The notes under the pieces are model-generated. The model saw only the letters and a list, made by a program, of their open reading frames with translations, was not told the origin of the DNA and ran no database searches. DNA of 40,505 nt, taken from the NCBI GenBank assembly GCA_016235085.1, contig JACRMA010000012.1, positions 1-40,505 of the forward strand. Direction: 5' to 3'. Each line of letters begins with the position of its first letter. The first letter of the stretch is position 1. Below are positions 13,158 through 34,051 of this stretch, piece after piece. A program made the position numbers and the translations under genes. This DNA is from Candidatus Zixiibacteriota bacterium. Its GTDB lineage: Bacteria > Zixibacteria > MSB-5A5 > WJJR01.

Positions 13158-16100
13158 ATGAGAATCTTCAGAGTGGTTTTCGGAACTGTCGCCATTGTCT
13201 CAATCATGGCGTCGCTGGGCGCCCTCATAGTGCAAGCCGAGGTGGCTGCACCATGGAATGAACAGGGCAACGCGGTTCAAGTGCTCAGCAAAGTGAGTTC
13301 TTTACGCGGCCCGATGGCCGCCGGAGCTGCTTCGGCAATGGCACCGGGCGACCCGGTTAGCATCAGCGGAGCGCTGGCGGCCGCATCCGGATACCTGAAT
13401 CGGATGCAGGCGGATGTCACCGAGGACAATGCGGGCAATGGATCCGGTGCGCTGGAGTCACCGAACGATCTTGATGATGGCGGTTGGGACTGGGTCGTCA
13501 CCTCTCCCCCCGCACCGTTCTTTCACACGACCGCCGCGAGTCCCAAAAACATCTACGGCGTCACAGCCCTGGGCCTGTACCACGGGTACCTGGCCTCCAG
13601 TAACCCAGCCTATTTTACGGCACTGACCGATGCCGCAAACAAGATGGTTGCTGACGCGGGAATTCGCTCGGCGTCTGATTTGATCTTTCTGATGCGTTAC
13701 AACGATCTTCCCGGCGTTGCCGGCACGGCATACAAAGATGCCGCCAAAGCCAAGTTTGATGCCCGGATCGCACTGTACGGCTCCGCGGATTCACTGGCGA
13801 AGTATATCCGCAACGTTCGCGGTGCAAGCTATCCCAACGGAATCATCGCCTGGGATATCGCCGCCTTTGTGAAGGCCGCAGCGATGCTTGAAGCCCGCTA
13901 TCCGTCTGATGTTTACGACTACGCCACCGCCGCCGCCGATATGGCCGAGGTTCTCTGGCAGGATTCGTTCAATGACTCCCCGGGGTTCTTTGACGTGGTC
14001 GACGATGCCGGGTGGGATCCGACCTGGAGCAACGTCAACTATTGGTGGTACACGCTTGGAATTTCCGGCCTCATCGATGCCTTTACCGCGACCGGAACGC
14101 ACACGTCTGAGGTACCGGGGCTTGTGGCGAGAATTCTTGCCAGCCAGTACACCACGGGAGCGATTAGCGGCAGTTATGGCGCGAATGCCGGTGACGAAGA
14201 CTGGCAATCCACCGCGTATGCCGCGCCGTCGCTCGCCGTGGTCGATCAGCCGCTCTACCAGGGCAAGATCAACCACATCGCCTATTGGCTCGGAGCGACT
14301 CAGGATCCCAGCGGCGGGTGGAAGTACTCCGACAACACACATTATCCGGAAATCATCGCCGAGTGCGCCTCGGCCCTGGCCCTGGGTCAGGCACCCTCCT
14401 ATGTCATCGTCGATGACGGCTTTACGAGCCAGGCCGATGTGGATGTCTACAATACGGCCAATGGAACGGACTATGTCTTCGGGTACGACGCGTTCGCCAC
14501 GATCCAAGGCGGCGTGGATGGCGTGTCTGGTTCGACTGTCATGGTGCTCCCGGGGACATACATCTTGTCGAGTACCGTCAACCTCAACAAGACGAATCTG
14601 ACAATCGACGGGGCAGGCGCCGGATCGACCATCGTGCAAGTGGCCCAATCTGTTGGCTATGCGTTTAACATATCGGCGTCCGGTGTGACTCTGCGCGATA
14701 TCGAGCTTCAGAAGACCGATGTCACGGGTTTGCATAATCTCATCTACATCGGCGCGAGCAACGCGTCCATTTTGAACAACCTGATCTACGGACCGGATCC
14801 GGGAACGCCTTGGAGCGTAAACGGCATCGTCAGCCGTGCGATGATATCAACCGGCGGCCTGACCGGTCTTTTGATCGACAACAACACGATTCATCACCTG
14901 CGTCAGCCGGGTTATTTCAGTGGTCCAACGACCGGTGTGATTTCCAACAACGCGGTATCCGGCACACGCGGCTGGGTGAATGAGGGCGCTAATCTGACCT
15001 TCACCAATAACAACTGGCCATTGCCGCCAAACCAGGGAGCCGAGATTGCATTGCTCGCCACTCTCGGTGCCAACGGTCCAATCTGGTATCCAGACCTCAT
15101 GGCATTGTCCAATGCGAACAACAACGCCTACGTGGATGCTCAATTCACGCCGACGGACAAGGGCCGGGCGATATCATATGTAGATGACTCGGCCGTACCG
15201 GGCGGATTCGGCAGCGCGCTCGCTCCGGTTCAGACCATGTCGGCCGGTGTCAGTGGGGTGCTGACGACGGGAACAGTGAATGTCGCCGCCGGCAGCTACA
15301 CGGACAATCTGGTCGTGGGGAAGGCCATGACATTGCTGGGCGCGGGGGCCGGCACTTGCCTCGTCTATCCCCTCTTGTCCGCTCCGATGCCAGGCGCCAG
15401 CGGCTCATTGCCGGCGGGCGCAAGCAATATGGTGCTCGTACAGGCGAACAACGTCTCGATCAGCGGCTTCACCTTCGATGGAAACAATACCGCTTTGACA
15501 AGCGGCGTGCTGGCCGGAGGAGTGGACGTGGACGCGCGCAACGGCATCATTACGAATCACGCGCTTGGCCTGTACAACAATTTGACCGTCGACAACTGCA
15601 CAATCAAGAATATCTACCTGCGTGGACTCTATGCCTCGTCGGGCGGAACGTTCAATTTCCATCACAACAGTGTCGACAACGTGCAGGGTGAATACGCCTC
15701 GATTGGCATGTTCAACTTCAACGGCTCTGGAGTGTTTGATCACAATACCGTATCGAACTGCAACGATGCGATCGCCTCAAATTGGTCGACCGGCTGCACC
15801 TTCACAAACAACATCGTCACCAATTCGGGCAGCGGCATTCACACCGATAACGCCGGGAATGCGGCCGGCAGTGCGGCTGACCTGATTGAGAACAACAGCA
15901 TCTCGAACAGTCCCGTCAACGGCTACGGGATTTTCGTGTTTGCGCCGTATGTGGCACCGGTGATCAATCTCAATACGATTACAAATGTCGACTTCGCCCT
16001 CACCTGCGCGGGGTCTTATGCCTCCGTCACGCCGCAATTCACCAATAACATTGCGGACGGCATGGGCAAACCGAACAGCGCCGGCGTCTACGTGACAACT

Positions 16101-18515
16101 GACATCTGGGGTTACGCATCGGGGAATGTCGCGGTGAATTTTGAGAACAACTCAATCAGAAACTTCACTGAGGGCCTTTACCTCGTTGCCGAGGCCGGTA
16201 AGACAAACTCGACGACACTGCTAAACAATAACATCGCTCAAAACGGATTGGGCATCAGTAATGGCGTCGGCCTGACGTACGGCGGCGGTGCCAACGTCGG
16301 GGCAATCGTGTCGGCAACACAGAATTCGTTCGCAAATACGGCCAATGCAACAGACAACAGTTCGGGCAACGCGTCCAGCCAGGATTGCTGGAGTGACTGG
16401 TCTGGGGTCGGAACGTACTTCGTTGGTGGCAGCGGCGGCAACATCGACGCGAGCCCGAACGTCGACTGCGGGCTCGACATGACACCGAATGCCATTGTCT
16501 ACCACTGCAGCGGAGACTTCACATTCGACGTAGGGATCGGCGAGGCCGTCCTTGATCTGGAGGGCGCCCACATTATCATCGAATACCCGGCGTCATTCGT
16601 ACTGTCGGGCGTGACTTCGGCGTCGCCCAACTTCTCCGTCTTCACTTCGCTGGTCGACAACACCGTGGGCAACGATATTCTGACGGTGGATCTGGGCGTC
16701 CTGACCGGTGCGCTGAACGGTCCGGCCACACTGTTCACGGTTGCCCTGAATGGCAGCACCAGCCTCTGCAGCGGTTCTCAGATTTCGATGACGACTGCGT
16801 CGTTGCGTGACGGTAACAACAACCCGATCGTCGCGTCGCTGGCCTACCCGGTGTCGGTGGTCGCCGATTGCGGGGACCCGTCGATCACAGTCAATTCTCC
16901 CGCGCCGGGTGGTATCTACAACGTTGTCCCGGTGCTCGATATCAGCGCGGCGGATGATTGTGAATTGGATGCCGTCTACTACCAGTACGACGGATGTTCT
17001 CCAGGCGACTGGCAGGCAATCGCGACTGGACTGATCGGAACGACTTACAGCAACGCAACTTGGACAATACCGGGTTGGCCTGGTTTGTCGGATGGAGCGC
17101 ATTGCATCCGCTTCAAGGTGATCGACGACAACGGCCGCGGGAACGCCGATTCGTGCTCCTTCAACTGGTGCTTCACAAAGGATGTAACGCCGCCGCCGCC
17201 GCCGACCAATCTGACCGCGACGCCGGGGCACAACAAAGTCCACTTGAACTGGACGAATGCGGCCAGTGATTTCGATCACGTGGTTGTGATGCGTTCGGAT
17301 TGGTACGCCGGTGGGCATGGATATCCCGAGTACGACGACAACAATCCCGAAGGTCCGGATCCGTCGGATACCGCCTCGTTCGACCGCGTCTACGCGGGAG
17401 CAGCTGCAACGCTGATCGACGTCGATGATTTGTCCGACGCGACACGTGACGTCTATCATTATCGCGCCTTCACCGTTGACGCTGCCGGAAGCGTCTCCGC
17501 GCCTTCGAATTCAGCGCGGTCGACCTCGTACTGGCTGGGCGATGTCAAATCACCGTACGACGGTTCGGTGTATTCACAGGATCTCTTTGTCTTCGCGCCA
17601 ACCTATGGCAAGTCACATGGCCAGGCGGGATACAACGACGAAGTCGACTTCGGTCCGACATTCAACATGAGCCCCAAGGGCATCCCGACCACCGACAACG
17701 TCGTCAATTTCGAAGATCTGGTGATCTTTGCCATCAACTTCGACGCGGTCAGTCCACTGCTCAAGTTCGCACCGGTCTTCGCCAGCTCACCCGCGGATCA
17801 ATCATTGGCAACCGGACTGTCCGGCCTGTCTCTGGTGATCCCGAATGTGGCTCCGGTTGTCGGGGAAAGCTTCACCGTCAAGGTCCTGATGGCGAACAGC
17901 CAGAACAATGCCAAGGCCGTGCGGTTCACTCTCCCGTACGATGCGAAGCAACTGGAGTATGTCGGCTCGGCCATGAGCGCCGAATTGCGGCAGTCGCCGA
18001 TGCAGGTATTCTTTGACGCCCGCGAGACGGAACAGATGATCGATGTCAGCCTCGCCCTGCTCGGCGGTGAAACCGCGATGGGCGGGTCAGGCGAAATCGC
18101 TACGATGACTTTCAAACTCCTTGCGGCAGGAGGGACGTCATTGGACTTCAACGAAGTGGACTTCCGTGATGGCGGTAACAACCGGCTCGAGGTTACGCAC
18201 CGGGGCGCCCAGCTCGCATCGAATTCGGCGCTCCCGGCATCGTACGCCCTCGACCAGAATTACCCCAACCCGTTTAACGCGGGGACCCAGATCGTCTACC
18301 AGTTGCGTGAGCGCACGAATGTTTCGCTCGCGGTCTATAACATTTCCGGACAGTTGGTGACTAAACTGCTCGACGGCATTCAGGAACCCGGCAGGCATTC
18401 CATTACCTGGGATGGCCGTGGGACGGATGGAGATGAAGTGCCGTCCGGAGTATACTTCTATCGGATGATCGCGGGTGACTACACTGCGACCAAGAAGATG
18501 ATGATCGTGAAGTAA
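13158..18515 (+). CDS. Giant modular surface protein with cohesin-like modules and T9SS tail
   Basis: Secreted protein of 1785 residues. Signal peptide about 1-28; GGGAGG precedes the ATG. Modules in order: an alpha/alpha-toroid-like region (about 60-410, rich in Trp/Tyr and Asp); a long right-handed beta-helix (about 416-1108, many Asn-Asn-x-Ile turns, NosD/pectate-lyase type, in two similar halves); a cohesin-like module (about 1109-1235); an Ig-like domain; an FN3-like domain (about 1345-1455); a dockerin-like pair of loops (about 1459-1533); a second, clearer cohesin module (about 1550-1680); and a T9SS type A sorting domain (1692-1785, with Gln-Asn-Tyr-Pro-Asn-Pro-Phe, Gly-Val-Tyr-Phe-Tyr and a Lys-Lys-Met-Met end). 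The tail predicts export by T9SS and surface attachment. The helix and toroid suggest polysaccharide binding or cleavage, unproven. A long hairpin terminator follows. Confidence 0.88.
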   Translation: MRIFRVVFGTVAIVSIMASLGALIVQAEVAAPWNEQGNAVQVLSKVSSLRGPMAAGAASAMAPGDPVSISGALAAASGYLNRMQADVTEDNAGNGSGALESPNDLDDGGWDWVVTSPPAPFFHTTAASPKNIYGVTALGLYHGYLASSNPAYFTALTDAANKMVADAGIRSASDLIFLMRYNDLPGVAGTAYKDAAKAKFDARIALYGSADSLAKYIRNVRGASYPNGIIAWDIAAFVKAAAMLEARYPSDVYDYATAAADMAEVLWQDSFNDSPGFFDVVDDAGWDPTWSNVNYWWYTLGISGLIDAFTATGTHTSEVPGLVARILASQYTTGAISGSYGANAGDEDWQSTAYAAPSLAVVDQPLYQGKINHIAYWLGATQDPSGGWKYSDNTHYPEIIAECASALALGQAPSYVIVDDGFTSQADVDVYNTANGTDYVFGYDAFATIQGGVDGVSGSTVMVLPGTYILSSTVNLNKTNLTIDGAGAGSTIVQVAQSVGYAFNISASGVTLRDIELQKTDVTGLHNLIYIGASNASILNNLIYGPDPGTPWSVNGIVSRAMISTGGLTGLLIDNNTIHHLRQPGYFSGPTTGVISNNAVSGTRGWVNEGANLTFTNNNWPLPPNQGAEIALLATLGANGPIWYPDLMALSNANNNAYVDAQFTPTDKGRAISYVDDSAVPGGFGSALAPVQTMSAGVSGVLTTGTVNVAAGSYTDNLVVGKAMTLLGAGAGTCLVYPLLSAPMPGASGSLPAGASNMVLVQANNVSISGFTFDGNNTALTSGVLAGGVDVDARNGIITNHALGLYNNLTVDNCTIKNIYLRGLYASSGGTFNFHHNSVDNVQGEYASIGMFNFNGSGVFDHNTVSNCNDAIASNWSTGCTFTNNIVTNSGSGIHTDNAGNAAGSAADLIENNSISNSPVNGYGIFVFAPYVAPVINLNTITNVDFALTCAGSYASVTPQFTNNIADGMGKPNSAGVYVTTDIWGYASGNVAVNFENNSIRNFTEGLYLVAEAGKTNSTTLLNNNIAQNGLGISNGVGLTYGGGANVGAIVSATQNSFANTANATDNSSGNASSQDCWSDWSGVGTYFVGGSGGNIDASPNVDCGLDMTPNAIVYHCSGDFTFDVGIGEAVLDLEGAHIIIEYPASFVLSGVTSASPNFSVFTSLVDNTVGNDILTVDLGVLTGALNGPATLFTVALNGSTSLCSGSQISMTTASLRDGNNNPIVASLAYPVSVVADCGDPSITVNSPAPGGIYNVVPVLDISAADDCELDAVYYQYDGCSPGDWQAIATGLIGTTYSNATWTIPGWPGLSDGAHCIRFKVIDDNGRGNADSCSFNWCFTKDVTPPPPPTNLTATPGHNKVHLNWTNAASDFDHVVVMRSDWYAGGHGYPEYDDNNPEGPDPSDTASFDRVYAGAAATLIDVDDLSDATRDVYHYRAFTVDAAGSVSAPSNSARSTSYWLGDVKSPYDGSVYSQDLFVFAPTYGKSHGQAGYNDEVDFGPTFNMSPKGIPTTDNVVNFEDLVIFAINFDAVSPLLKFAPVFASSPADQSLATGLSGLSLVIPNVAPVVGESFTVKVLMANSQNNAKAVRFTLPYDAKQLEYVGSAMSAELRQSPMQVFFDARETEQMIDVSLALLGGETAMGGSGEIATMTFKLLAAGGTSLDFNEVDFRDGGNNRLEVTHRGAQLASNSALPASYALDQNYPNPFNAGTQIVYQLRERTNVSLAVYNISGQLVTKLLDGIQEPGRHSITWDGRGTDGDEVPSGVYFYRMIAGDYTATKKMMIVK

Positions 18516-18523
18516 ATCGTTGT

Positions 18524-18572
18524 TCGGCGGGCGGGAGCCTCCCGAAGAGGGGGGCTCCCGACTCCCCGCCGA
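18524..18572 (+). terminator. Long hairpin terminator after the 1785-residue protein gene
   Basis: An 8-bp outer stem (TCGGCGGG with CCCGCCGA) and an 8-bp inner stem (CGGGAGCC with GGCTCCCG), separated by a 4-nt bulge on the 3' side, begin 8 nt after the stop codon. There is no T-run, so it may act as a 3' stabiliser or Rho-assisted terminator. It isolates the large gene from the following two-gene unit. Confidence 0.6.
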
Positions 18573-18615
18573 ATTGAGTGTTCTTGGTCTTTGGTTATTA
18601 GGGAAGTGACAACAG

Positions 18616-19350
18616 ATGAGAGTGCGCCGTAACCCGTATCTTGGTATCCTTCTTGCAATCATCACATGTTGGGTGATCCCATCCGGCAGCACGGTGGCAG
18701 GCCAGGTCTCCTTCAGCCCACCCAGCCAATCCGCCACACCGTACGACACATTCGACGTCAATATCGTCGTCGACACCGGCGTGCGCGCCCTGGGATGTTT
18801 CAATGTCCAGGTCAGTTTCCTGCGTCCTGACGTCACCGTACTTGGAGTGACCGAGGGACCGTTGCTGAAGAACACGGGAAGCTCCTTCGGGTGGACCGCC
18901 AAGGATACGCTGGGTGTGTGGGACATCTTCGATTGCGTTCTCCCGCCCAAGTACGCGAACGGCCCGGGTGTCCTGGCGACAATGCGATTTGCCACGGGTG
19001 CGTCTCCATGCAGCACCCCACTGCAATTCGTCTATGTCTATTTTCAGGACACAATCGGGCAGCCGGTCACGGTCGGCTCGGCCGATGGCATGATTGTCGT
19101 CCCCGGCTGCTGCAGTTGTCCGTCCCAGGGCGATATCAACAACGATGGCAGCATCGACGTCTTCGACGTGATCAGCGTCATCGATGTGGCCTTCAGCGGC
19201 GGTCAGGATATTCAGGATCCGGGATGCCCGATTGCACGCAGCGATGTCAATAACGACCAGGTGGTCGACGTGTTCGACGTAATCTACATCATTGGAACGG
19301 CATTTAGCGGCGGTTCCCTGCCCATCGACCCGTGCAACTCTGGCGGATGA
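18616..19350 (+). CDS. Small secreted cohesin-plus-dockerin protein
   Basis: Exported protein of 244 residues. Signal peptide about 1-31 (basic start, Ile/Leu-rich core). Residues about 33-160 fit a cohesin-like beta sandwich: an early Phe-Asp-Val-Asn-Ile-Val-Val strand, a Phe-Asn-Val-Gln-Val-Ser-Phe strand, and Gly-Val-Leu-Ala-Thr-Met-Arg-Phe near the end, the order typical of cohesins. Residues about 163-244 form a double dockerin with loops Asp-Ile-Asn-Asn-Asp-Gly-Ser-Ile-Asp and Asp-Val-Asn-Asn-Asp-Gln-Val-Val-Asp, framed by cysteines. The protein is essentially one cohesin joined to one dockerin, so it could act as an adaptor or chain-forming unit. AGGGAAG lies about 10 nt before the ATG. 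The next gene starts 27 nt downstream, forming a two-gene unit bounded by terminators. Confidence 0.85.
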   Translation: MRVRRNPYLGILLAIITCWVIPSGSTVAGQVSFSPPSQSATPYDTFDVNIVVDTGVRALGCFNVQVSFLRPDVTVLGVTEGPLLKNTGSSFGWTAKDTLGVWDIFDCVLPPKYANGPGVLATMRFATGASPCSTPLQFVYVYFQDTIGQPVTVGSADGMIVVPGCCSCPSQGDINNDGSIDVFDVISVIDVAFSGGQDIQDPGCPIARSDVNNDQVVDVFDVIYIIGTAFSGGSLPIDPCNSGG

Positions 19351-19377
19351 TAAACTCGAGGTTCCGGAGGTCGTATC

Positions 19378-20124
19378 ATGTCCCATCACACAACAAGAAT
19401 CGGTTCTGTGGCGCTTGCCACACTCCTCGCCGTCGGCCTGCTCCTGCCGGGGTCAGCCATGGCGCAGCGGGTTTTCGTCGATCCGCCATCGTTCGCACAA
19501 CACTGCAACGTCACGGATACGCTCTGGATCATGCTGGACGCTTCGCTGGTCGGAGTCGAGGGAGCGAGTCTCAATGTGCAATTCGACCAGACCGTGGGGC
19601 GGCTCGACACGATTCTTGCCGCACCGGCGCTGGATACCAACGTGTTTCTCCGGTACCAGAACTACTACCCGGATTCCGTCACCATCGACGCGGGGATCCT
19701 GATTGGCGCACTTAGCGGTCCGGGTGCCCTTTGCGGACTGGTGATCACCCTCACCGATCACCTGGGCGCCAGCCCGGTCACGCTGGTCCGTTCGATTCTC
19801 CGGGACGCCGATAATCAGGACATTGCCCATCTGGCCGATCCCGGCGTACTCGATAATCCCTGTTGCTGTGCACATCACGGTGACGTGGCAGGCGACGACG
19901 TCTTCGATGTAAACGATGTCGTGACTCTGATCGACTACACGTTTAGCAATGGTACCGCGCCGCTGATTGACGCAGGCTGTCCTCATATGCATCGGGGGGA
20001 CGTCAATTGTGATGCCATTCCTGATGTCTTTGACATTCTTCGGCTGATCGACTTTGTCTTCAGTGGGGGGCCTCCCCTCTGTCAGCCTTGCGACTGCTCT
20101 CCCTACCCGACGCATTGCTTGTAA
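19378..20124 (+). CDS. Small secreted cohesin-like plus type-B dockerin protein
   Basis: Exported protein of 248 residues. Signal peptide about 1-31, ending Ala-Met-Ala-Gln. Residues about 33-158 form a cohesin-like domain with a Leu-Asn-Val-Gln-Phe-Asp strand and a late Arg-Asp-Ala-Asp-Asn segment. Residues about 160-248 are a double dockerin of a second type: the helices read Leu-Ile-Asp-Tyr-Thr-Phe and Leu-Ile-Asp-Phe-Val-Phe, and the end adds Cys-x-Pro-Cys-x-Cys-Ser-Pro-Tyr-Pro. The first loop is degenerate (Ala-Gly-Asp-Asp in place of Asn-x-Asp). GGAGG lies 7 nt before the ATG. It has the same layout as its upstream neighbour but a different dockerin subtype, so the pair could link two binding specificities. 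A strong terminator follows. Confidence 0.85.
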   Translation: MSHHTTRIGSVALATLLAVGLLLPGSAMAQRVFVDPPSFAQHCNVTDTLWIMLDASLVGVEGASLNVQFDQTVGRLDTILAAPALDTNVFLRYQNYYPDSVTIDAGILIGALSGPGALCGLVITLTDHLGASPVTLVRSILRDADNQDIAHLADPGVLDNPCCCAHHGDVAGDDVFDVNDVVTLIDYTFSNGTAPLIDAGCPHMHRGDVNCDAIPDVFDILRLIDFVFSGGPPLCQPCDCSPYPTHCL

Positions 20125-23136: not shown

Positions 23137-25791
23137 ATGACCATCACCAATGAGTTTCGCACGCCAGGGTCACGCGCACATCGAGGAGTCCGGGGCACAC
23201 TGCCGGTTTGGCTCGCTTGTCTGACTTTAGCCGTCCTCGCGAGTACAGCCGTTGCACGAGCGAGTCAAGGCCCGGCGCCAAGCGATGGTGTCAGAGGAGT
23301 GCGGATGTCCATTGCTCCCGCAGCTCAAATGACATGGGACGAATTGGTCGCAATTGATAAAGCCAAGGCGGCCTTACCGGGGGCCCCTTCTCAGGCGATT
23401 CCGTTTATGGAAGAGCCCGCCGACCGTGACATTGGCTTCACCATGGGTTTATCACCGCAACCGGATCATGTGGCGACTCCGGCGTACAGCCCGAGGGTAT
23501 TGCTCCCGCCACTGAAGAACAGCTTCCAGGCCTTGCCTGACAACAACCGGGTGATTCCGCCCGATACGCATGGCGCGGTCAGCAAGAGCTATACCATGAC
23601 CATGCTGAACAGCCAGGTGCGGATTCAGAATCGTTTCGGCGCAACGATCAGCACAGTGAGTCTGGCAGCCTTCTGGGTTACGGTTGGCTCCACTGGCCTG
23701 ACCGATCCTCGCATCATGTATGATCCGGCAACGAATCGCTGGCTGGCCACTGTCCTTGCCGACGTGCGAACCGCGACTGCATCGTTCCTCTTCGCCATCA
23801 GCGCGAACAGCAATCCCACCGGAAGCTGGACATTCTACCGCGTCGACGTGGATCCAACCGACGTCAACTGGGCCGACTATGACGATCTGGGATTCAACGA
23901 CACCTGGATTGCCGTTACGGCCAACATGTACACGGTCGCGGCGTCGCTGTTTTCGGGTACCGCGATGTGGGTGATTAATAAGTCCACCGCACTCGCGGGA
24001 GGCTCGCTGACGTTGACATCATTCCCCGTTGGGTCCGATTCATTTGGCGGTTTCGACGGCTTCACTTTGAGAGTCTGCCAGACGTTCGGGCCCGAACCGA
24101 CGCTTTATATCGTCGATAACCCGGGCTGGAGTTCTGCTGGCGTCAACCTCTTGCGCTTGACCCAGATCACCGGCACCGCTGCAGCACCCATTTGGTCGGC
24201 AACGCCCGGCTCAGATTGGGCCGGCTCGGGTCTATTCGCTGTGAACAATTCATTTTCGCCGCAGATCAATGCGCCGCAATTGGGCACCGCGACGCTGATC
24301 TCAACCAACGACCGTCGCATGCTCAACGCCGTCTTCCGCAATGGACACGTCTGGTGTACGCACAGCGGAGGCTTGCCGGTCGGAGCCGTGGATCGCACGG
24401 CGGCGTTCTGGTACCAACTGGACCCAACGGCGCTACCGGCGCCCATCGTTCAATCAGGTGTGCTTGACGGCGGAAGCGGTGTGCACCATTTCTTTCCCAG
24501 TATCTCCGTGAACATCAATGACGATGCCTTCATCGGATTCACGCGCTCCGACGCAACACGATACGCCGAGGCGGTCTACACCGGTCGGTTGGGAACTGAC
24601 CCACTGGGCACCATGGATCCGATCTCCCTTCTGAAAGCCGGCGAGGCCAGTTATGTGAAGGATTTTGGGAGCGGACGCGTGCGCTGGGGTGATTACAGCG
24701 CCACGCTCGTCGATCCCATTGACGACGTCTCCTTCTGGACGATTCAGGAATACGCCGCCATGGACGTCGGCCCCACCGCGAACGATGACCGATGGGGAAC
24801 CTGGTGGGGACGCGTCTCGTCGGGGCCGGCGAACAATCCACCAACGGCGATTTGCAGGAATGTAACAGTCAATGCCAGTTTCAGTTGCCTGGCAGCAGTG
24901 TTTGCGGCCGCGGTCAACAATGGATCGTCGGATCCGGAGGACGGCACGAATGTGACGCTGGCTCTGTTGCCGCCGGGACCGTTTCCGCTCGGCGTGACCG
25001 CTGTCGACCTTGTTGTCACTGATACGCAGGGTGGATCGGATACCTGTTCCGCGTTGATCACGGTGGAGGATCACACAGCGCCGGTCATTACCTGCCCGGC
25101 GCCGATGACCGTGAACAACACGGTGGGACAATGCGGTGCGACAGTGAATTTCACTCCAACCGCCACAGACAATTGTCCCGGTGCATCGATCGTTTCGACG
25201 CCGCCATCGGGAACAGTCTTTCCGATCGGTGTGACGCCAGTCATGTCCATCGCCAGCGATGCATCGGGGAACATGGACACGTGCCAGTTCACGGTGACCG
25301 TACGCGACACCGAGCGTCCCGTGGTGCTCTGCCATGCGGACACGATTGTTGACGCACCGCCCGGCCAATCCGACGCGATTGTCATATTCGGCAGTTCGGC
25401 GACCGATAACTGCCCGGGGGCGGTCGTCGTCTGCACTCCTCCGTCCGGTTCGGCGTTTCCGGGAGGCGTCACTCACGTCATCTGTATCGCGACCGATGCG
25501 GCAGGTAACAAGGACACCTGCGGGTTCAATATCACTGTGAATCTGTGTGTCTGCCTGCACCAGGGTGACATCGCAGTGCGGCCTACCGGCGACGGCATGA
25601 TTGACGTGTTTGACATAATTGAGGAAATCGGAATTGCATTCAGCGGCGCGACTGATCCGCAAGACCCGCAGTGCCCAAGGACCCGTGGTGATGTCGACAA
25701 CAACGGCATAAGCGACGTTTTCGATGTCCTATACCTGATCGCGACTGCGTTCGGCGGCGGACCGAATCCGGTCGACCCATGCACACCGTAG
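23137..25791 (+). CDS. Secreted propeller-like protein with HYR domains and dockerin
   Basis: Extracellular protein of 884 residues. A long N-terminal region precedes the signal peptide core (about 22-43), with cleavage near Ala-Arg-Ala-Ser; GAAGGA precedes the ATG. Residues about 125-560 look like a beta-propeller, with Pro-Pro-Asp-Thr-His-Gly, Asp-Pro-Arg-Ile-Met-Tyr-Asp and repeated Trp-containing strands. Residues about 570-800 hold one HYR-like and two clear HYR domains with Ala-Thr-Asp-Asn-Cys-Pro-Gly, typically adhesive Ig-like modules. Residues about 804-884 are a double dockerin; its first loop has a three- to four-residue insertion (Arg-Pro-Thr-Gly-Asp-Gly) and the linker keeps the usual Cys-Pro-Arg-Thr-Arg-Gly-Asp. 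No catalytic residues could be assigned. A promoter lies at 22883-22911 and a terminator follows. Confidence 0.87.
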   Translation: MTITNEFRTPGSRAHRGVRGTLPVWLACLTLAVLASTAVARASQGPAPSDGVRGVRMSIAPAAQMTWDELVAIDKAKAALPGAPSQAIPFMEEPADRDIGFTMGLSPQPDHVATPAYSPRVLLPPLKNSFQALPDNNRVIPPDTHGAVSKSYTMTMLNSQVRIQNRFGATISTVSLAAFWVTVGSTGLTDPRIMYDPATNRWLATVLADVRTATASFLFAISANSNPTGSWTFYRVDVDPTDVNWADYDDLGFNDTWIAVTANMYTVAASLFSGTAMWVINKSTALAGGSLTLTSFPVGSDSFGGFDGFTLRVCQTFGPEPTLYIVDNPGWSSAGVNLLRLTQITGTAAAPIWSATPGSDWAGSGLFAVNNSFSPQINAPQLGTATLISTNDRRMLNAVFRNGHVWCTHSGGLPVGAVDRTAAFWYQLDPTALPAPIVQSGVLDGGSGVHHFFPSISVNINDDAFIGFTRSDATRYAEAVYTGRLGTDPLGTMDPISLLKAGEASYVKDFGSGRVRWGDYSATLVDPIDDVSFWTIQEYAAMDVGPTANDDRWGTWWGRVSSGPANNPPTAICRNVTVNASFSCLAAVFAAAVNNGSSDPEDGTNVTLALLPPGPFPLGVTAVDLVVTDTQGGSDTCSALITVEDHTAPVITCPAPMTVNNTVGQCGATVNFTPTATDNCPGASIVSTPPSGTVFPIGVTPVMSIASDASGNMDTCQFTVTVRDTERPVVLCHADTIVDAPPGQSDAIVIFGSSATDNCPGAVVVCTPPSGSAFPGGVTHVICIATDAAGNKDTCGFNITVNLCVCLHQGDIAVRPTGDGMIDVFDIIEEIGIAFSGATDPQDPQCPRTRGDVDNNGISDVFDVLYLIATAFGGGPNPVDPCTP

Positions 25792-25991: not shown

Positions 25992-28900
25992 ATGCGCACT
26001 CGACTGATCTCTACTGCTGTTGCCATCCTGGCGACCGTGATGGTTTGGGCTGCGGAGTCGCCCGAAAGAATGGTGGCACGTCACCTGGCTGATGAGGCCC
26101 AGCAGCCGTCGAGAGGTGGCAAGTCGTGGGCAACTCTGCCCATCGCCGATGGGCCGCAGGACCGATTGGATAACTGGATCGCGGCGCAGCCGGCGAATCG
26201 ATCGATCATCAGGGATGATTACACCGTTGGCGCCGGATTGAACGCGGTGACGGCCGCCCCCGGGCTGCAATTGGCATGGACGACATATGACTTCCAGCAT
26301 AACGATGCGGTACCCCACCAGATCGGGACCATTCTCTCCCCGGCAGTCGGCGACACGTCCCACCTTGTCCACTTTGTATGGACCCACTGGGATATAATCC
26401 CCGAATCGCTGAACCGCATTGACCGGTTCGTCAACTTCCAGAGCTATAACTCCGCAACAGGGCATTTCATCCATGGCACGAATGGACTTACTATCTCGGG
26501 GGCGGGTGGCGATCCGTTGCAGGGGCGCGCCGGTTTCATCACAATGGACGTAGACGACAACGACCGCACGAGAGCCGTTGCTCACGTGCGGGATGCACCT
26601 GAGCAGCCTTCCGGCGACTACTGCTCCTACTACTATGAGCAGTCCGCCTCGGCATTTTCCGTGTTCACCGAGGGTGTACTGAATGGCTCGAAGGGTGTGC
26701 TCGGCAATTTCACCGACGACGTGATTTGGCCACACGTTACCGTAGACCGGCAACCGGGCACCGACTATTTCTACGTCGTCTCACACACCTACTCTGCGAA
26801 TTCCAACCTCGTCTTTTGGCGCTGTACAGCCCCGATGATTTGGCAGGGACCTTACGTGATCGATTCCACCCCGTCTCTGAGCTACAACATTGCGGCAGAC
26901 CCGACGAGCGACAAGATTGCCCTGGTCACGGAGAATGCCACTCCATCCCCGTCCAATCCACACGGCATTTTGCAGATCGTCTACCGTCCTTCACCGGCCC
27001 GCGGCGATGACTGGGGTGCGGTGAACACGACCGGTTTGGGCGATTCCAAACGTGTATTCGTAACCAGCTACAACGACGCGGCGGGTCCGGGAGCGTGGCT
27101 CGACGTCGTCGGTGATTACGACAATGCCGGTAAGCTTCACATCGTCTGGAACGAGCAGCGTGTGCAGAATTCTAGCGAGCAGGGCTCCTGGAAGCACTGG
27201 GATGACGTCGCCAATACGATCACCACGATCCACCAAGCCTACTGGAACAACACGGGTGCAGTCGGTGGCCGCGACATCAATATTAAGTTCCCGTCGATTG
27301 GATTCGGTGACGGTTCGACGACTTGCGGCAGCGGAACCAATTTGAATTATGTGTACCTGACGTTCTGCCAATTCGGCGGCGAGACCTCAGCCGAGCAACA
27401 CGATCAATCCGCCCACGGATACATGAACGGTGAGGTCTACTTGTCCGGATCCACCGACGGCGGCATCCACTGGTCGCCCGCACAGAACTTGACGAACAGC
27501 CGGCGTCCAGGTTGCGACCCGGCCCGAGGTGATTCGTGTCCCTCCGAGAACTGGCCGTCGCTGGCACGCACTGTGAACGACACGCTGCACCTCATGTACA
27601 TCAATGACCGTGACGCGGGGGACGCGGTCTTCGGCCAGGGGAACTGGACCTTCAATCCGGTGATGTACTATCGAATTCCCGGCGGGACAAATGCACAACT
27701 GCTTTGCCCGACGATTGCGCCGAATGCGGCCGTGGACTTGTCTGACGCCAATGGCGCCGATTGTGAATACAACACCCCTCCCAACACGAGCCTCTCCGAG
27801 TCGTTGACTATATCAAACCCTGGAAATGCCGCGATGACCGGCCAGGTGAGCATCCAGTACCTCAATCCGCCAAGCGGCGCTTGGCTGCTCACCGCCACTG
27901 GCGGGTACACGATTCCCCCTGGAGGGATGGACGACGTCCGGCCAGTTGTGATGAGCGCCGCGGGTTTGAGTGAGGGGTTGTATCGGGCGCAGATCTCGGT
28001 CACCCACAATGATCCGACAAAGACCTCGCCCGTTGTCCTGCCGGTGGATTTCTTCGTATTCCATAACTTTGCCTGCCCGGAGTACGTAACCCTGCACACC
28101 AATTGGCTGGAACTCGAGGTCTCGAGCGTCGACCGTGTCGCGATGGGGCCCCTGCGATACTCGGGCACAGGCATCGGACTGAACGTCGCACCGATCCCGG
28201 GCAGTTCACATCAGAGTATGGCTGCGAACGTACCTGTGGGTGGCGGCATCTGGGGCGCACGCGGTCTTTACCGTGCACCACGCTTCGGCTCGCCGGATTC
28301 GGGAAATAACACGATCTACGATGCCAGCTTGATCATTGCCAGGACCCCGACTCCATCGGCACCTCCCCCCGGGGACACAACGGTCTACCGATACCTGTTT
28401 GGCCAGGGCAATTATGCCAGAGGTTTCCGCGCGTTGTCCGGTTTGACGGTCGACTCATCCAACTATGGAACTGGCGCCGGCATGGTTACGGCGCGGGCGC
28501 AACAGGCCACAATTGATTCCCTCATTGGCATCGATGTCGAGTACCAGTTCCCCCAGAGTGCCGACTCGTCGAACTTTGTAATCATCACCTACAAAATCTT
28601 CAAACGAGCCGCCGGTACAATCTCCGGCCTGATCATCGGCGAGGCGGCGGACTTCGACATCATTCCGTCGGCAGAGAACGCGAAGTACCAGATCGGCACA
28701 CAGAATAAGGCCGCGTACAGCTCGGCCATGAATCTGGTGTACCAGACGGGCGCCGACTCCGGCGCCACCACGCTGGCTCAGAAGTACATGGGTGGGATGA
28801 CCGCGATTCAATGCACTCCAGCGCCGCGCGCCTGGCTCGCCCCGAATGATCAATGGTTGTTCAAGAATCGTGGCGGCGGATTCTACGAGGGATACCTGTA

Positions 28901-29681
28901 CGCACAATTGGTGAAGAGCGGATTCGAAATCATCCCGGCTTCGGGAGGATACACCAAATTAGATTGGCATTCGGTAATGGCATTCGCCAAGAATGTGTCC
29001 TTGAGTTCGACGACAGCCAAGCGATTCGCGCTGGGTTTTGTGACGTCGACGGCAGGTCCAGACACTACCGACCTGATGGCGACGACGCGGAAAGCCTGGC
29101 GATTTGCCTTCGGCTGGCAGGACGTAGTGACTCTCGACACCATCTCGCTCGGCATAGCGAGATCGTATCCCTACTGGGCATCGGGCTCCCATGAAAACGG
29201 GCCAACGAGCGGCTGCTGTGGTTGCGTGGTGAGTAAAGTTTCCGGGAGTCCGCTGTTGACGATCGCTCCCGACCCGGGTAACTGCACGGGCACGATTACT
29301 TTTGCCGGATCGCCGAGTCCGGGAAGTTTCACGGCGACATTCCGGGTTGCGACCCCAACCTGCACCGGTCCCTTGTACACTGAGGATCACGTGGTCACGA
29401 TTCTGGCGGGTTTCTTCCCGTGCAACTGTCCCGACCAGGGCCGTTTGAATGCGGACAGTGTCATCGACGTTTTGGATATCATAGCGTTAATCGACTATGT
29501 CTTCTCCGGCGCAGCCCAACCGGTGACTGACCCGATCTGCCCGACCGATCGCGGCGAGATCAACTGCGACGGGGCCGATGATGTCCTGGACGTGGTGGAC
29601 CTGATCGACTATGTCTTTGCCGAAGGACAAGCGCCCTGCAACCCCTGCGCCTGCAGTCCGTACCCGTCGAATTGCCCGTGA
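25992..29681 (+). CDS. Large secreted Asp-box (sialidase-fold-like) protein with type-B dockerin
   Basis: Extracellular protein of 1229 residues. Short signal peptide (about 1-21) ending Val-Trp-Ala-Ala; GGAGG precedes the ATG at good spacing. Residues about 60-570 appear to be a propeller: an Asp-box (Ser-Thr-Asp-Gly-Gly-Ile-His-Trp, about 480-487) and nearby Trp-Ser-Pro-Ala-Gln-Asn-Leu are typical of BNR/sialidase-like folds. The catalytic Arg triad and Tyr/Glu pair of true sialidases could not be assigned. Residues about 575-690 are an Ig-like strand domain. About 700-1060 is a beta-rich region of unknown family. Residues about 1143-1229 are a type-B double dockerin with two Leu-Ile-Asp-Tyr-Val-Phe helices and a Cys-x-Pro-Cys-x-Cys-Ser-Pro-Tyr-Pro end; the first loop starts Arg-Leu-Asn instead of Asp-x-Asn. 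The substrate is unknown. Confidence 0.87.
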   Translation: MRTRLISTAVAILATVMVWAAESPERMVARHLADEAQQPSRGGKSWATLPIADGPQDRLDNWIAAQPANRSIIRDDYTVGAGLNAVTAAPGLQLAWTTYDFQHNDAVPHQIGTILSPAVGDTSHLVHFVWTHWDIIPESLNRIDRFVNFQSYNSATGHFIHGTNGLTISGAGGDPLQGRAGFITMDVDDNDRTRAVAHVRDAPEQPSGDYCSYYYEQSASAFSVFTEGVLNGSKGVLGNFTDDVIWPHVTVDRQPGTDYFYVVSHTYSANSNLVFWRCTAPMIWQGPYVIDSTPSLSYNIAADPTSDKIALVTENATPSPSNPHGILQIVYRPSPARGDDWGAVNTTGLGDSKRVFVTSYNDAAGPGAWLDVVGDYDNAGKLHIVWNEQRVQNSSEQGSWKHWDDVANTITTIHQAYWNNTGAVGGRDINIKFPSIGFGDGSTTCGSGTNLNYVYLTFCQFGGETSAEQHDQSAHGYMNGEVYLSGSTDGGIHWSPAQNLTNSRRPGCDPARGDSCPSENWPSLARTVNDTLHLMYINDRDAGDAVFGQGNWTFNPVMYYRIPGGTNAQLLCPTIAPNAAVDLSDANGADCEYNTPPNTSLSESLTISNPGNAAMTGQVSIQYLNPPSGAWLLTATGGYTIPPGGMDDVRPVVMSAAGLSEGLYRAQISVTHNDPTKTSPVVLPVDFFVFHNFACPEYVTLHTNWLELEVSSVDRVAMGPLRYSGTGIGLNVAPIPGSSHQSMAANVPVGGGIWGARGLYRAPRFGSPDSGNNTIYDASLIIARTPTPSAPPPGDTTVYRYLFGQGNYARGFRALSGLTVDSSNYGTGAGMVTARAQQATIDSLIGIDVEYQFPQSADSSNFVIITYKIFKRAAGTISGLIIGEAADFDIIPSAENAKYQIGTQNKAAYSSAMNLVYQTGADSGATTLAQKYMGGMTAIQCTPAPRAWLAPNDQWLFKNRGGGFYEGYLYAQLVKSGFEIIPASGGYTKLDWHSVMAFAKNVSLSSTTAKRFALGFVTSTAGPDTTDLMATTRKAWRFAFGWQDVVTLDTISLGIARSYPYWASGSHENGPTSGCCGCVVSKVSGSPLLTIAPDPGNCTGTITFAGSPSPGSFTATFRVATPTCTGPLYTEDHVVTILAGFFPCNCPDQGRLNADSVIDVLDIIALIDYVFSGAAQPVTDPICPTDRGEINCDGADDVLDVVDLIDYVFAEGQAPCNPCACSPYPSNCP

Positions 29682-29806: not shown

Positions 29807-30043
29807 GCTTGAGGTAAGCCAAACGCCGCGATGAGCGGCAACGTCTCTGGTTTTGAGGTGAATCCGCTGGCACTGGCTCTCGCCGGATCCGCGGTCTGAC
29901 GCCCGACCAATACAGTTACCGACATATCCCCGCCCTACGGGGAACAAGTTCTCACAGGGAACGTGACATCCATCGGACGAATTTGGGTTCCGGTGGCACA
30001 TCGTGCGAACACAGCAATGGCACATGGCCCTTGCGGAGGAGGA

Positions 30044-33000
30044 ATGATGGCAAAGCGACTGATTCTTGTGCTGGCGATCGTGCTTGCGGGGTTGTTCTCG
30101 TTCCCGAGAACCAGCGTCGCCGCACCAGAAGGGACAGCGTCGGCAACGGGAGGGCCGCAACCGGATGACCAGGCTCAGTTCCAAACTGCTGCCTCGACGC
30201 TCCCCACCTATTATGTGTACCACGGGCGGCCGGAGAATCTGACGCTTGATCCTGTCCGGCTCGCAATCCAATACGGCGCACCATCATCCACAAGCGAGCG
30301 TTCGGCGGCGATTAACGCGGCCGGAATCGACGTCATGTCCGAGGAAGCGACCGGGATCACCGGGTGGTCACTCCTCAATCTCGCGACGGAAATCTCTGGT
30401 CCGGCCGATGCCGATTCGCGCATCAAATCGCTGCTCGCCACCACGGCGGCGACATTCGTCTCGCCTGTCTTCCGCACTCAGGCGGGGGGTTGGGTGACGA
30501 TGACTCCGACAATCCTTCTGCGTTTCAAGAACGGATACGAGTCCAACGGAGACGCCCTGCTCGCGACGATTGCTCCTGAACTGGCCGCCACAGACCGGGA
30601 ATTCGGCAAGATGCCGGGGGCCTACAAACTGCGCAGCAGTTCTCGCAATGGGTTCGACGTTTTGGCCATCGCCAATCGGCTCGCCTCTGATCCGCGGGTT
30701 GCGTGGGCGGAACCGGATGCCATCTTTACCGGGCATGGTGATCTGATCCCCAACGATCCCGGGTTCTCCAGTCTCTGGGGGATTCGCAACACGGGGCAAT
30801 CGGGCGGCGCTCCCGGCATGGATATGGCCGGCGACAGAGCGTGGGACATTACCACCGGGGATCCTAATGTCAAGGTGCTGATCATCGACACCGGCGTGCA
30901 GCAGGACCATCCGGACATCAATCAACTCCCGGGTGCGGACTTCACCGGCGAAGGCGGCGGAGGCGGGCCGGTCAATGCCTGCGACAATCACGGCACTGCC
31001 GTAGCGGGGTGCGTGTCAGCCATCATCAATAATGCGACCGGCACGGTTGGCATCGCCCCATCGTGCCGCGTCCTGTCCGCCCGCCCGTTTACCTCAACTC
31101 TGGATTGCTCCGGCAGTTGGTCAAGTACCGCGAGTTGGACGGTTGATGCCCTGACGTGGGGAGAATCCCAGGGAGCGCGCGTCAGCAACAACAGCAACTA
31201 CTATGGCTTCACATCGAGCGCCATCGAGGACAAGTATGCTTCGACCTATGCCGGCGGCATGGTTCATTTTGCCAGTGCCGGGAATGACGCCAGTCCTTCT
31301 ATTTCGTATCCATCGTCTGCCCCATTTGTGAACTCGGTCGCAGCATTAAATCAGCAGGGTTCGCGCTCTTCGTTCAGCAACTACGGTGTCGGATTGGACT
31401 TTTCCGCACCGGGCTCGACGATCTACTCGACCGATCGCACGGGAACCCAGGGATATGTGAGTGGGGACTACACCTTTGTCAACGGTACGTCTTTCGCCTC
31501 ACCCTATTCGGCCGGCGTGGCGGCACTCATCATCTCCAACAATCCCGCGCTGACCTCCGCCCAGGTCGAAGCCAAGATGCAGACTTCCAGCCGTGATTTG
31601 GGCGCAGCCGGGTACGACACCGACTTCGGCTGGGGATTCGTGAATGCGTACGATGCCATTGTCCCATACACCACGCTCTCGGTGTTGTCGTACAATCCCA
31701 CCTCGGGCATCGCGGTCACCATCAGCCCGGCGGATACCAATGGGTTGGGCGATGGCGTCACGCCGTTCGACCGGCAGTATTCACCCGGAAGGGATGTGAC
31801 GCTGACCGCGCCGGGCATCGGCGCGGGAGACACGTTCGTCAGATGGTTGAAAGACGGTGTCTACTTTCCCGGGGGTACCACGATTACGGTCGACTTGAGC
31901 ACGTCGCATGCGTTGATGGCGGTCTATCTCGCTTGCACCCAATCCGTGAGCAAGCCAGTTATCACACCCGAAGGCCCGGTGTGCATGATCCCCTACACTG
32001 TCGCCTGGCTGCCGCTGGCGGGGGCTTCGGGGTATGAGATCCAGGAGAATGGCGGAGCGTGGGTTTCGACCGGCACCGACACCTCGAAGTCATTCACTCC
32101 CTCGGTGGCGGGAGACTACGTGTATTCCGTTCGTCCGGTGTCAAGCTGCGGCGCCGGGGCGGCCAGCGCGACGGCGACCATCTCGGTTGATGGCGCCATT
32201 CCGCCAGTGGTCTCGCAACCACGGATTGATGGTCCCAGTCCGGTGTGCATAAACTCCCAATTCGCCGTGAGTTGGGATGCGGTCACGGGTGCCCGCAGCT
32301 ATGAAATTCGCGAGAATGGCGGAAGCTGGACCAGCGTCGGGGCGGTGCCGGTGCAATTCTATTTCAAGACGGTCCCGGGCCTCTACACGTATGAAGTCCG
32401 TTCCGAGAACAGCTGCGGGGCGAGCGCACTCAGTTTGCCGGTCTCAATCACGGTAACCGCTGATGGATCCGCCGCTCCCGCTCCGCCCACGCAGCCTGTC
32501 GTGCAGCCGGCCAATCCAGTGTGCACGGGCACACCGCTGACCATTCGGTGGAACAACGTGCCCGCAGCGGACTACTATCAAATTCGTGAGAACGGCGGTA
32601 TCTGGCAGAACTGCGGAAGCATACCAGTGTGGGGCATGAGTCCCGCGGGACCCGGCACGTTCATTTATGAGATTCGCGCGGTCAATAGTTGTGGTGCGAG
32701 CAATCCAAGCCCGGCGACGACGGTCCTCATCGGACCCTGCTACAATGTCGCCGTATTTTCCCTGCACCCGGACAACGACGTAGCGATAACCCTAAGCCCG
32801 CCGGACCAAAATGGCAAAACAGGAGGCACGACCCCGGACGCTTATCTGTACGGCAGTGGCCAGATCGTGTCCATCGAAGTTCCGGCGGTGGTTAACGGTT
32901 GGAACTTCCTCAAGTGGCAGCGTGACGGAGTGGACTACTCAACCAATCCGGCGATTTCCCTGACGATCGACGCCGACAGAGTGATGACCGCGATGTACCA

Positions 33001-34051
33001 CATCCCCATGCTCACCATTGCCTCAGCCAATCCCGGGAGCGGCGTGGCCATCGTGGTCACGCCACAGGACATCAACGGTCAGGCCGATGGCACGACTCCA
33101 TTCACCCGCGAATATGTTCAGGGAACGAACGTCACGCTGCAGGCACCGGCCAACTTCAACGGCAATCCGTTTGAGAAGTGGCAGCGCGATGGCGCGGATT
33201 ATCCCGGTGGACAGTCGATCGCTTTCGCACTGGATACCAATCATTCGATGACCGCCATGTATCATAGCGTGACGGGCGTTGAGATCGAGAGTAAGAGCGC
33301 GCTGTCAGGCTCGGTGCCGATCCATATTAAACTCTCCAATGAAGTTCCGGTGCGAAAGATCCTGCTCCCCCTGGAAATCCGTGAAGTCACGCCGGGAGCG
33401 GCCATCACGAGAATCCGGGTCAGCTATGCGGAACGGCTGACGGGGTATCTGACGGGAATCAGCTCCGCGCTGCAGTTTGGCACTCCCGATGGAAACTGCA
33501 AGAGTGGATTGTCGGGTGGATACAAGACAGCCACCGCGATCATGACGCCCGATGTCGACGTGAACGTCGGGGACCTCCCCGAGGGAATCTCCATCGTCCG
33601 CGGCCGTCTGACGGACCCCGCCCTCCCCGCAGGCGCTGACGCCTCTGGGTCGATCATTCTGACGGTGTTCGTGAATGGACCGCAGGGGTCGTTCGAGATC
33701 GACACGACCTGCACCAATCCCGCTAATCATCTGATCTTTACCCAGGAAGATCCGCCGACTTACACGAACATCCTCCCGGTCTTTACGAAAGGTACAATTA
33801 CCATCACCGGCGACGGCTGCGGATGCCCATCGCAGGGGGATCTTATCGCCAACGGTGATATCGATGTGTTTGATATCATCGCCGTGATCGGGGTCGCATT
33901 CAGCGGTGACCTGGATCCACAGGATGCGAACTGCCCCAAGACTCGCGGTGACGTCAACAACGACGGCGTCACCGACGTCTTCGACGTGATCTACCTGATT
34001 GCAACGGCGTTCAGCGGTGGGCCCAATCCGCTTGATCCGTGCAATCCCTAG
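30044..34051 (+). CDS. Secreted subtilisin-like serine protease with cohesin-like module and dockerin
   Basis: Exported S8 peptidase of 1335 or 1336 residues. Tandem ATGs at 30044/30047 follow GGAGGAGG; the upstream in-frame start (29963) lacks a ribosome binding site. Signal peptide about 1-25. A prodomain-like region ends near residue 230 (Arg-Val-Ala-Trp-Ala-Glu-Pro-Asp). The catalytic domain has Asp282 (Ile-Asp-Thr-Gly-Val), His316 (Asn-His-Gly-Thr-Ala) and Ser483 (Asn-Gly-Thr-Ser-Phe-Ala-Ser-Pro), so it should be active. Next come an InlB-type B-repeat, three FN3/Ig-like repeats with Tyr-Glu-Ile-(Gln/Arg)-Glu-Asn-Gly-Gly, and two more B-repeats. A cohesin-like module (about 1083-1255) also occurs in the 36817-39273 protein. 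A type-A double dockerin ends the protein. It could process or be docked with other exoproteins (inferred). A UUCG terminator follows. Confidence 0.92.
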   Translation: MMAKRLILVLAIVLAGLFSFPRTSVAAPEGTASATGGPQPDDQAQFQTAASTLPTYYVYHGRPENLTLDPVRLAIQYGAPSSTSERSAAINAAGIDVMSEEATGITGWSLLNLATEISGPADADSRIKSLLATTAATFVSPVFRTQAGGWVTMTPTILLRFKNGYESNGDALLATIAPELAATDREFGKMPGAYKLRSSSRNGFDVLAIANRLASDPRVAWAEPDAIFTGHGDLIPNDPGFSSLWGIRNTGQSGGAPGMDMAGDRAWDITTGDPNVKVLIIDTGVQQDHPDINQLPGADFTGEGGGGGPVNACDNHGTAVAGCVSAIINNATGTVGIAPSCRVLSARPFTSTLDCSGSWSSTASWTVDALTWGESQGARVSNNSNYYGFTSSAIEDKYASTYAGGMVHFASAGNDASPSISYPSSAPFVNSVAALNQQGSRSSFSNYGVGLDFSAPGSTIYSTDRTGTQGYVSGDYTFVNGTSFASPYSAGVAALIISNNPALTSAQVEAKMQTSSRDLGAAGYDTDFGWGFVNAYDAIVPYTTLSVLSYNPTSGIAVTISPADTNGLGDGVTPFDRQYSPGRDVTLTAPGIGAGDTFVRWLKDGVYFPGGTTITVDLSTSHALMAVYLACTQSVSKPVITPEGPVCMIPYTVAWLPLAGASGYEIQENGGAWVSTGTDTSKSFTPSVAGDYVYSVRPVSSCGAGAASATATISVDGAIPPVVSQPRIDGPSPVCINSQFAVSWDAVTGARSYEIRENGGSWTSVGAVPVQFYFKTVPGLYTYEVRSENSCGASALSLPVSITVTADGSAAPAPPTQPVVQPANPVCTGTPLTIRWNNVPAADYYQIRENGGIWQNCGSIPVWGMSPAGPGTFIYEIRAVNSCGASNPSPATTVLIGPCYNVAVFSLHPDNDVAITLSPPDQNGKTGGTTPDAYLYGSGQIVSIEVPAVVNGWNFLKWQRDGVDYSTNPAISLTIDADRVMTAMYHIPMLTIASANPGSGVAIVVTPQDINGQADGTTPFTREYVQGTNVTLQAPANFNGNPFEKWQRDGADYPGGQSIAFALDTNHSMTAMYHSVTGVEIESKSALSGSVPIHIKLSNEVPVRKILLPLEIREVTPGAAITRIRVSYAERLTGYLTGISSALQFGTPDGNCKSGLSGGYKTATAIMTPDVDVNVGDLPEGISIVRGRLTDPALPAGADASGSIILTVFVNGPQGSFEIDTTCTNPANHLIFTQEDPPTYTNILPVFTKGTITITGDGCGCPSQGDLIANGDIDVFDIIAVIGVAFSGDLDPQDANCPKTRGDVNNDGVTDVFDVIYLIATAFSGGPNPLDPCNP

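Follow-up and report, generated by a model that had tools for sequence, protein, structure and literature searches.

The genes for two small proteins, P1 and P2, each uniting a cohesin with a dockerin, form a real unit together with the large upstream gene of a T9SS-tailed cohesin protein, and this larger locus recurs across several families of the class. We propose, and put the chances at about even, that P1 and P2 are adaptor-scaffoldin-like, monovalent members of a T9SS-anchored cohesin-dockerin display system, which we call non-cellulosomal solely on the strength of the dockerin proteins encoded in the window (S8 subtilase, HYR, PKD, and cadherin-like types). In more general terms, the two proteins are probably connectors in a surface-display system. 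The window is the whole stretch of DNA that was analysed, 40,505 nucleotides. It comes from a Candidatus Zixiibacteriota MAG, as do the named relatives of the locus. The features discussed below are as follows.

13158 to 18515, plus strand: large upstream gene; its scaffoldin-like product of 1785 aa carries two cohesins and ends in a T9SS tail
16470 to 16853, plus strand: cohesin A of the large protein, without a Pfam match, a member by profile and tree
17553 to 17744, plus strand: dockerin-like stretch in the large protein (GDVKSPYDGSV...VNFEDLVIFAINF), a weak match to NCBIfam dockerin_GC
17823 to 18227, plus strand: cohesin B of the large protein, Pfam Cohesin 38.2 bits (cut-off, 24.1)
18261 to 18506, plus strand: T9SS type A sorting tail of the large protein (TIGR04183; Pfam Por_Secre_tail)
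18522 to 18574, plus strand: hairpin between the large gene and P1, -46 kcal/mol, z -6.2, without a U-tract
18616 to 19350, plus strand: P1, 244 aa, with signal peptide, cohesin-fold domain, and dockerin with positions 10-11 = VF/VF
18706 to 19101, plus strand: P1 cohesin domain, Foldseek best 50 all cohesins, Pfam Cohesin 15.1 bits
19126 to 19338, plus strand: P1 dockerin, two calcium-loop repeats of the bulk genome type, Pfam Dockerin_1 14.9 bits
19378 to 20124, plus strand: P2, 248 aa, with signal peptide, cohesin-fold domain, and dockerin with positions 10-11 = VN/VF
19468 to 19854, plus strand: P2 cohesin domain, Foldseek best 50 all cohesins, hhalign match to the P1 cohesin profile
19876 to 20088, plus strand: P2 dockerin, with 80 similar places in the genome
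20151 to 20171, plus strand: terminator-like hairpin 3' of P2, 8 GC pairs, weak T tail

As the sequence-only reading had it, P1 and P2 are two open reading frames 27 nt apart (the P1 stop lies at 19350 and the P2 ATG at 19378), each with a signal peptide and a cohesin, and on this sequence and fold agree. The gap contains a Shine-Dalgarno-like CCGGAGG stretch, and the signal peptides were recognized by eye (...TVAG/Q in P1 and ...AMA/Q in P2). A dockerin is present in each protein, although what had been described as a double dockerin is in both cases one ordinary two-repeat dockerin. Domain searches found no domains in P1 or P2 other than these two; each protein is a cohesin plus a dockerin on one non-catalytic chain, the architecture of an adaptor scaffoldin. 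Orthologs of P1 show 91% identity in the same genus and 41% in the same family, and those of P2 show 90% and 42%, respectively.

AlphaFold2 models of P1 and P2 (mean pLDDT, 80.5 and 81.0; pTM, 0.58 and 0.66) confirmed, at the level of predicted structure, that both N-terminal domains have a cohesin fold. For either protein, the 50 best PDB matches listed by Foldseek were cohesins only, with best E values of 1.6e-11 for P1 (against 1g1k, TMt 0.81) and 1.5e-8 for P2. Profile searches of the PDB with P1 and P2 also returned only cohesins, at weak E values of 0.013 to 0.84, and the two domains are related to each other (hhalign probability 97.9). Against Pfam PF00963, P1 scored 15.1 bits, under the curated cut-off of 24.1, and P2 gave no match, while the ortholog L061 fell narrowly short at 23.7 bits. 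The P1 dockerin scored 14.9 bits against PF00404 (cut-off, 22.9) and the P2 dockerin gave no match, while the orthologs L058 (25.3 bits) and L061 (29.9 bits) exceeded this cut-off. Judged by these scores, both modules of P1 and P2 are too diverged for the Pfam cut-offs. The models also bear on a closed monomer, in which the dockerin would bind the cohesin of its own chain until a stronger partner released it. The architecture permits such a state and the linker is short, but the pTM values give no clear support, and we regard it as very improbable.

The large protein ends in a T9SS tail that scored 42.1 bits against TIGR04183 (cut-off, 23) and also exceeded the cut-off of Pfam Por_Secre_tail. 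With this type A C-terminal domain, and with T9SS machinery encoded in the genome, it has the features expected of T9SS cargo. Its cohesin A is related to the P2 cohesin; cohesin B was not returned by hmmscan of the whole protein and was recovered with the isolated domain and in the genome search. The dockerin-like stretch reached 13.7 bits with NCBIfam dockerin_GC, far under the cut-off of 29.

This large gene adjoins P1/P2-type genes in families f1, f5, f8, f11, and f12, and the C-terminal ~800 aa of its product are conserved beside them, at 34 to 48% identity over most of this length. In f5, f8, and f12 the large gene is followed by two small cohesin-dockerin genes, and at one f8 locus (L068) by a single one. 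In f11, a T9SS tail replaces the dockerin at the end of the P1-type protein, and the large protein includes the P2-type cohesin. In G002, the contig begins directly before P1. In the genome of the window, this cohesin subfamily has four members, all in the locus, and the next match has an E value of 0.0014; the query included the four locus rows, so that their own scores are not independent, while the absence of others is informative. In a tree, the locus cohesins cluster by their position in the locus. The search for the gene pair in related genomes thus found it, together with the large gene, in several families. P1 and P2 are adjacent, as proposed, but a two-gene border is too narrow, because the large upstream gene is part of the conserved unit. 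The claim that the pair is bounded by terminators held downstream, where a hairpin with 8 GC pairs follows P2; the upstream hairpin is very stable but lacks a U-tract, and it could have a transcript-stabilizing or separating role.

Across the class, cohesins and dockerins are split by the T9SS tail. Tails, called by pattern, end 42 of 51 ORFs with a Pfam cohesin in a sample from across the class, whereas in four genomes they occur in 1 of 158 dockerin ORFs, 152 of which carry the dockerin at the C terminus. P1 and P2 are exceptions in that they unite the two modules. The T9SS core protein SprA is encoded in the same genome (E 3.4e-36) and in all 33 of 33 near-complete relatives. Among genomes with a completeness of 90% or more, both modules occur in 39, dockerins alone in none, cohesins alone in 2, and neither module in 3; this co-absence (Fisher p 7.6e-4) carries no phylogenetic correction and is driven by two families. 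T9SS tails and Pfam dockerins are inversely related (rho -0.44 by genome; -0.42 by family, p 0.09), and Pfam dockerins are scarce or absent in the four families with the most tails. The trend is weak at the family level and is to be read with the fact that Pfam undercounts divergent dockerins.

The genome itself encodes ~70 dockerin proteins, nearly all with the dockerin at the C terminus: there are 73 places similar to the P1 dockerin and 80 similar to that of P2, and 69 dockerin pairs were extracted from the fetched loci. This number weighs on the head-to-tail assembly raised in the sequence-only reading, in which the dockerin of P1 or P2 would bind a cohesin of P1 or P2 to build chains. Both partners lie on one chain, and if the P1 and P2 cohesins read the genome-wide code, they would read their own dockerins too. 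However, ~70 other dockerins and further cohesins would compete, and f8 (L068) and f11 have a single small gene, which in f11 lacks a dockerin. We consider such chains quite unlikely.

Several further observations concern the dockerin proteins of this and related genomes. Dockerin genes are clustered in the window, where the 40-kb contig encodes five more dockerin proteins (1162-2946, 23137-25791, 25992-29681, 29963-34051, and 36817-39273), among them cadherin-like, HYR, S8 subtilase, and PKD types. The only dockerin ORF of the genome with a T9SS tail, L110:2331-5057, encodes a 908-aa protein with an internal dockerin and lies at Pfam cohesin match C75. Two other dockerin proteins (L081:1241-5248 and L076:7832-10501) carry dozens of seven-residue TCxGxxT repeats in a very long, regular, Cys-rich array. 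A domain of ~180 aa, which starts with VESK and ends in ...FEIDTTC..P.NHL.F....P.F.KG, recurs in dockerin proteins of the window (29963-34051 and 36817-39273) and of L094, L096, L102, L104, and L125. It had no Pfam match in the proteins scanned, and an hhalign probability of 0.1 ruled it out as a cohesin. Cohesin-like beta-sandwich modules are abundant in these secretomes. In f3 and f4 (G009, G010, G018, G019, G025, and G032) dockerins are almost absent, and each genome has 41 to 299 candidate T9SS tails, which looks like one tag standing in for the other.

In P1, the calcium loop D-x-N-x-D-x3-D-x2-D is complete in both dockerin repeats; in repeat 1 of P2, the N3 ligand is replaced by Ala. The models of both proteins place a helix after each loop, as in type I dockerin repeats. 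Positions 10 and 11 of the repeat are known specificity determinants (PMC8063739, PMC3413522), and we read them by a profile scan of dockerin repeats. P1 carries V-F, as do the majority of this genome's ~69 dockerins, while P2 departs from it in repeat 1 only (V-N), its second repeat being of the bulk type. The P2 dockerin has LID[Y/F] at positions 16 to 19, and the C-terminal end of the protein is Cys-rich (CxPCxCSPYPxxC). The Asn that P2 has at position 11 of repeat 1 recalls the adaptor dockerin of A. cellulolyticus ScaB, which is marked by Asn at this position and owes a different partner to its altered positions (PMC3413522). The two proteins had been said to carry different dockerin subtypes that could convert one binding specificity into another. 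A distinct subtype is apparent in P2, with V-N in repeat 1, LID[Y/F], and the Cys-rich end, but P1 is of the bulk type at positions 10-11. Given the differences at positions 16 to 19 and at the Cys-rich end, P2 may have a changed specificity. Conversion is hinted at by V-N in P2, but it is made doubtful by the code of P1, which argues against a special specificity for this protein, and by the homologs in relatives, which carry the code of their own genome.

The codes are genome specific. V-F occupies positions 10-11 in 78 of 108 distinct repeats of this genome, A-V in 33 of 46 repeats of G002, V/I-S in 52 of 53 of G043, and I-A/G/S in 32 of 37 of G096; as a check for sampling bias, lower-ranked dockerins of the latter three genomes showed the same codes. 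For 212 of 217 dockerins, the nearest neighbor comes from the same genome (or genus), and a dockerin tree built on 48 columns, with poorly resolved forks, has 9 genome-label changes against a shuffled mean of 118.8. The P2 orthologs of G000 and G002 share an identical calcium loop, NCDAIPD, and differ in the code residues (DVFDIL versus DAVDLN), a sequence pattern more suggestive of substitution at the recognition face than of copying of the whole module. Dockerins that group by genome, and locus cohesins that group by position, are expected if all dockerins within a genome follow the receptors they share. Against this, duplication or gene conversion could be the source of the genome-wise clustering.

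For the binding of the modules, the cohesin-dockerin pairings, and the surface location, we infer the following. About 70 Sec-exported proteins, including proteases and adhesion-type proteins, bear a dockerin at their C terminus, with a recognition code common to the whole genome. The T9SS tail would carry the large protein and a few other cohesin proteins to the outer surface. The dockerin of P1 or P2 would dock onto a T9SS-anchored cohesin, and its own cohesin would be offered to another dockerin, so that the array is extended or branched. The cohesin fold and the conserved linkage to a T9SS-tailed cohesin protein speak for this predicted adaptor role. The adaptor dockerin is evidently not essential everywhere, since the f11 homolog of P1 has a T9SS tail and no dockerin.

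The bulk code of P1 weighs against the adaptor role, because with it P1 may be one more cargo protein. P1 and P2 could then be ordinary displayed cargo in which the dockerin alone works and the cohesin-fold domain, having lost dockerin binding, serves as a spacer, adhesin, or ligand-binding module. Their dockerins with the bulk cargo code, their cohesins under the Pfam cut-offs, and the frequency of cohesin-like modules in these secretomes would all fit. However, the fold match is specific to cohesins, and these cohesin lineages have long been kept at the same locus beside another cohesin gene; we give this explanation a real chance, though one well below even. If the P1 and P2 cohesins read the common code, branching or chains become possible; if they do not, P1 and P2 are cargo whose N-terminal domain is inert or binds in another way.

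The T9SS tail goes with cohesins and not with dockerins, it takes the place of the dockerin in the f11 ortholog of P1, and Pfam dockerins are scarce in the four families richest in T9SS tails; these observations hint at a wider reading. The Zixibacteria dockerin might serve as another sorting tag, one that can be exchanged for the T9SS tail. Sec-exported proteins lacking the tail would bind T9SS-tailed cohesin carriers, reach the surface, and possibly piggyback through T9SS, with codes of each lineage's own and P1 and P2 as swivel pieces. We think this unlikely.

What is new is the class-wide three-gene locus, the placing of cohesins on proteins with a T9SS tail and of dockerins on proteins without one, and dockerin codes that are specific to each genome; the literature searched under the spelling Zixibacteria contained nothing on dockerins in this group. 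The many dockerin proteins of this uncultured class have lacked an explanation; the locus gives them a concrete conserved gene set, tied to T9SS anchoring, and raises the question of how those that lack a T9SS tail get through the outer membrane. Codes that shift in concert over dozens of dockerins provide, in nature, a set of cohesin-dockerin pairs that may be orthogonal, and they allow coevolution between one receptor and many ligands to be tested.

Monovalent adaptor scaffoldins are a described class in cellulosomes (PMC4959524), with R. flavefaciens ScaC as an example, and like P1 and P2 they are small, secreted, and built of a single cohesin and a single dockerin. In contrast to them, P1 and P2, known here from sequence and models, stand in a non-cellulosomal context, in a diderm T9SS host, beside a T9SS-tailed cohesin gene, and the P1 dockerin shares the code of the bulk cargo dockerins. 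The non-cellulosomal cohesin of the non-cellulolytic Archaeoglobus fulgidus (PDB 2xdh; Voronov-Goldman 2011) is a close structural match, third best for P1 and second best for P2. In that organism, two neighboring genes reportedly encode two cohesins and one dockerin that bind strongly. This archaeon is not known to have T9SS or an expanded dockerin protein set. ANME archaea, also non-cellulolytic, have scaffoldin-like proteins with dockerin and cohesins together, but with up to 5 cohesins per protein and a suggested attachment by S-layer, not T9SS (PMC9012536). In Ca. Stygibacter (Cloacimonadota), a cellulosome-like system has been proposed in which a scaffold with cohesins and a T9SS CTD anchors dockerin-bearing signal-peptide enzymes, including S8 peptidases (PMC8542988). 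In that system, tandem cohesins and CBMs sit on a single scaffoldin of 3,755 aa (PMC8542988), whereas the Zixibacteria locus combines, class-wide, a large protein with two dispersed cohesins and single-cohesin dockerin proteins.
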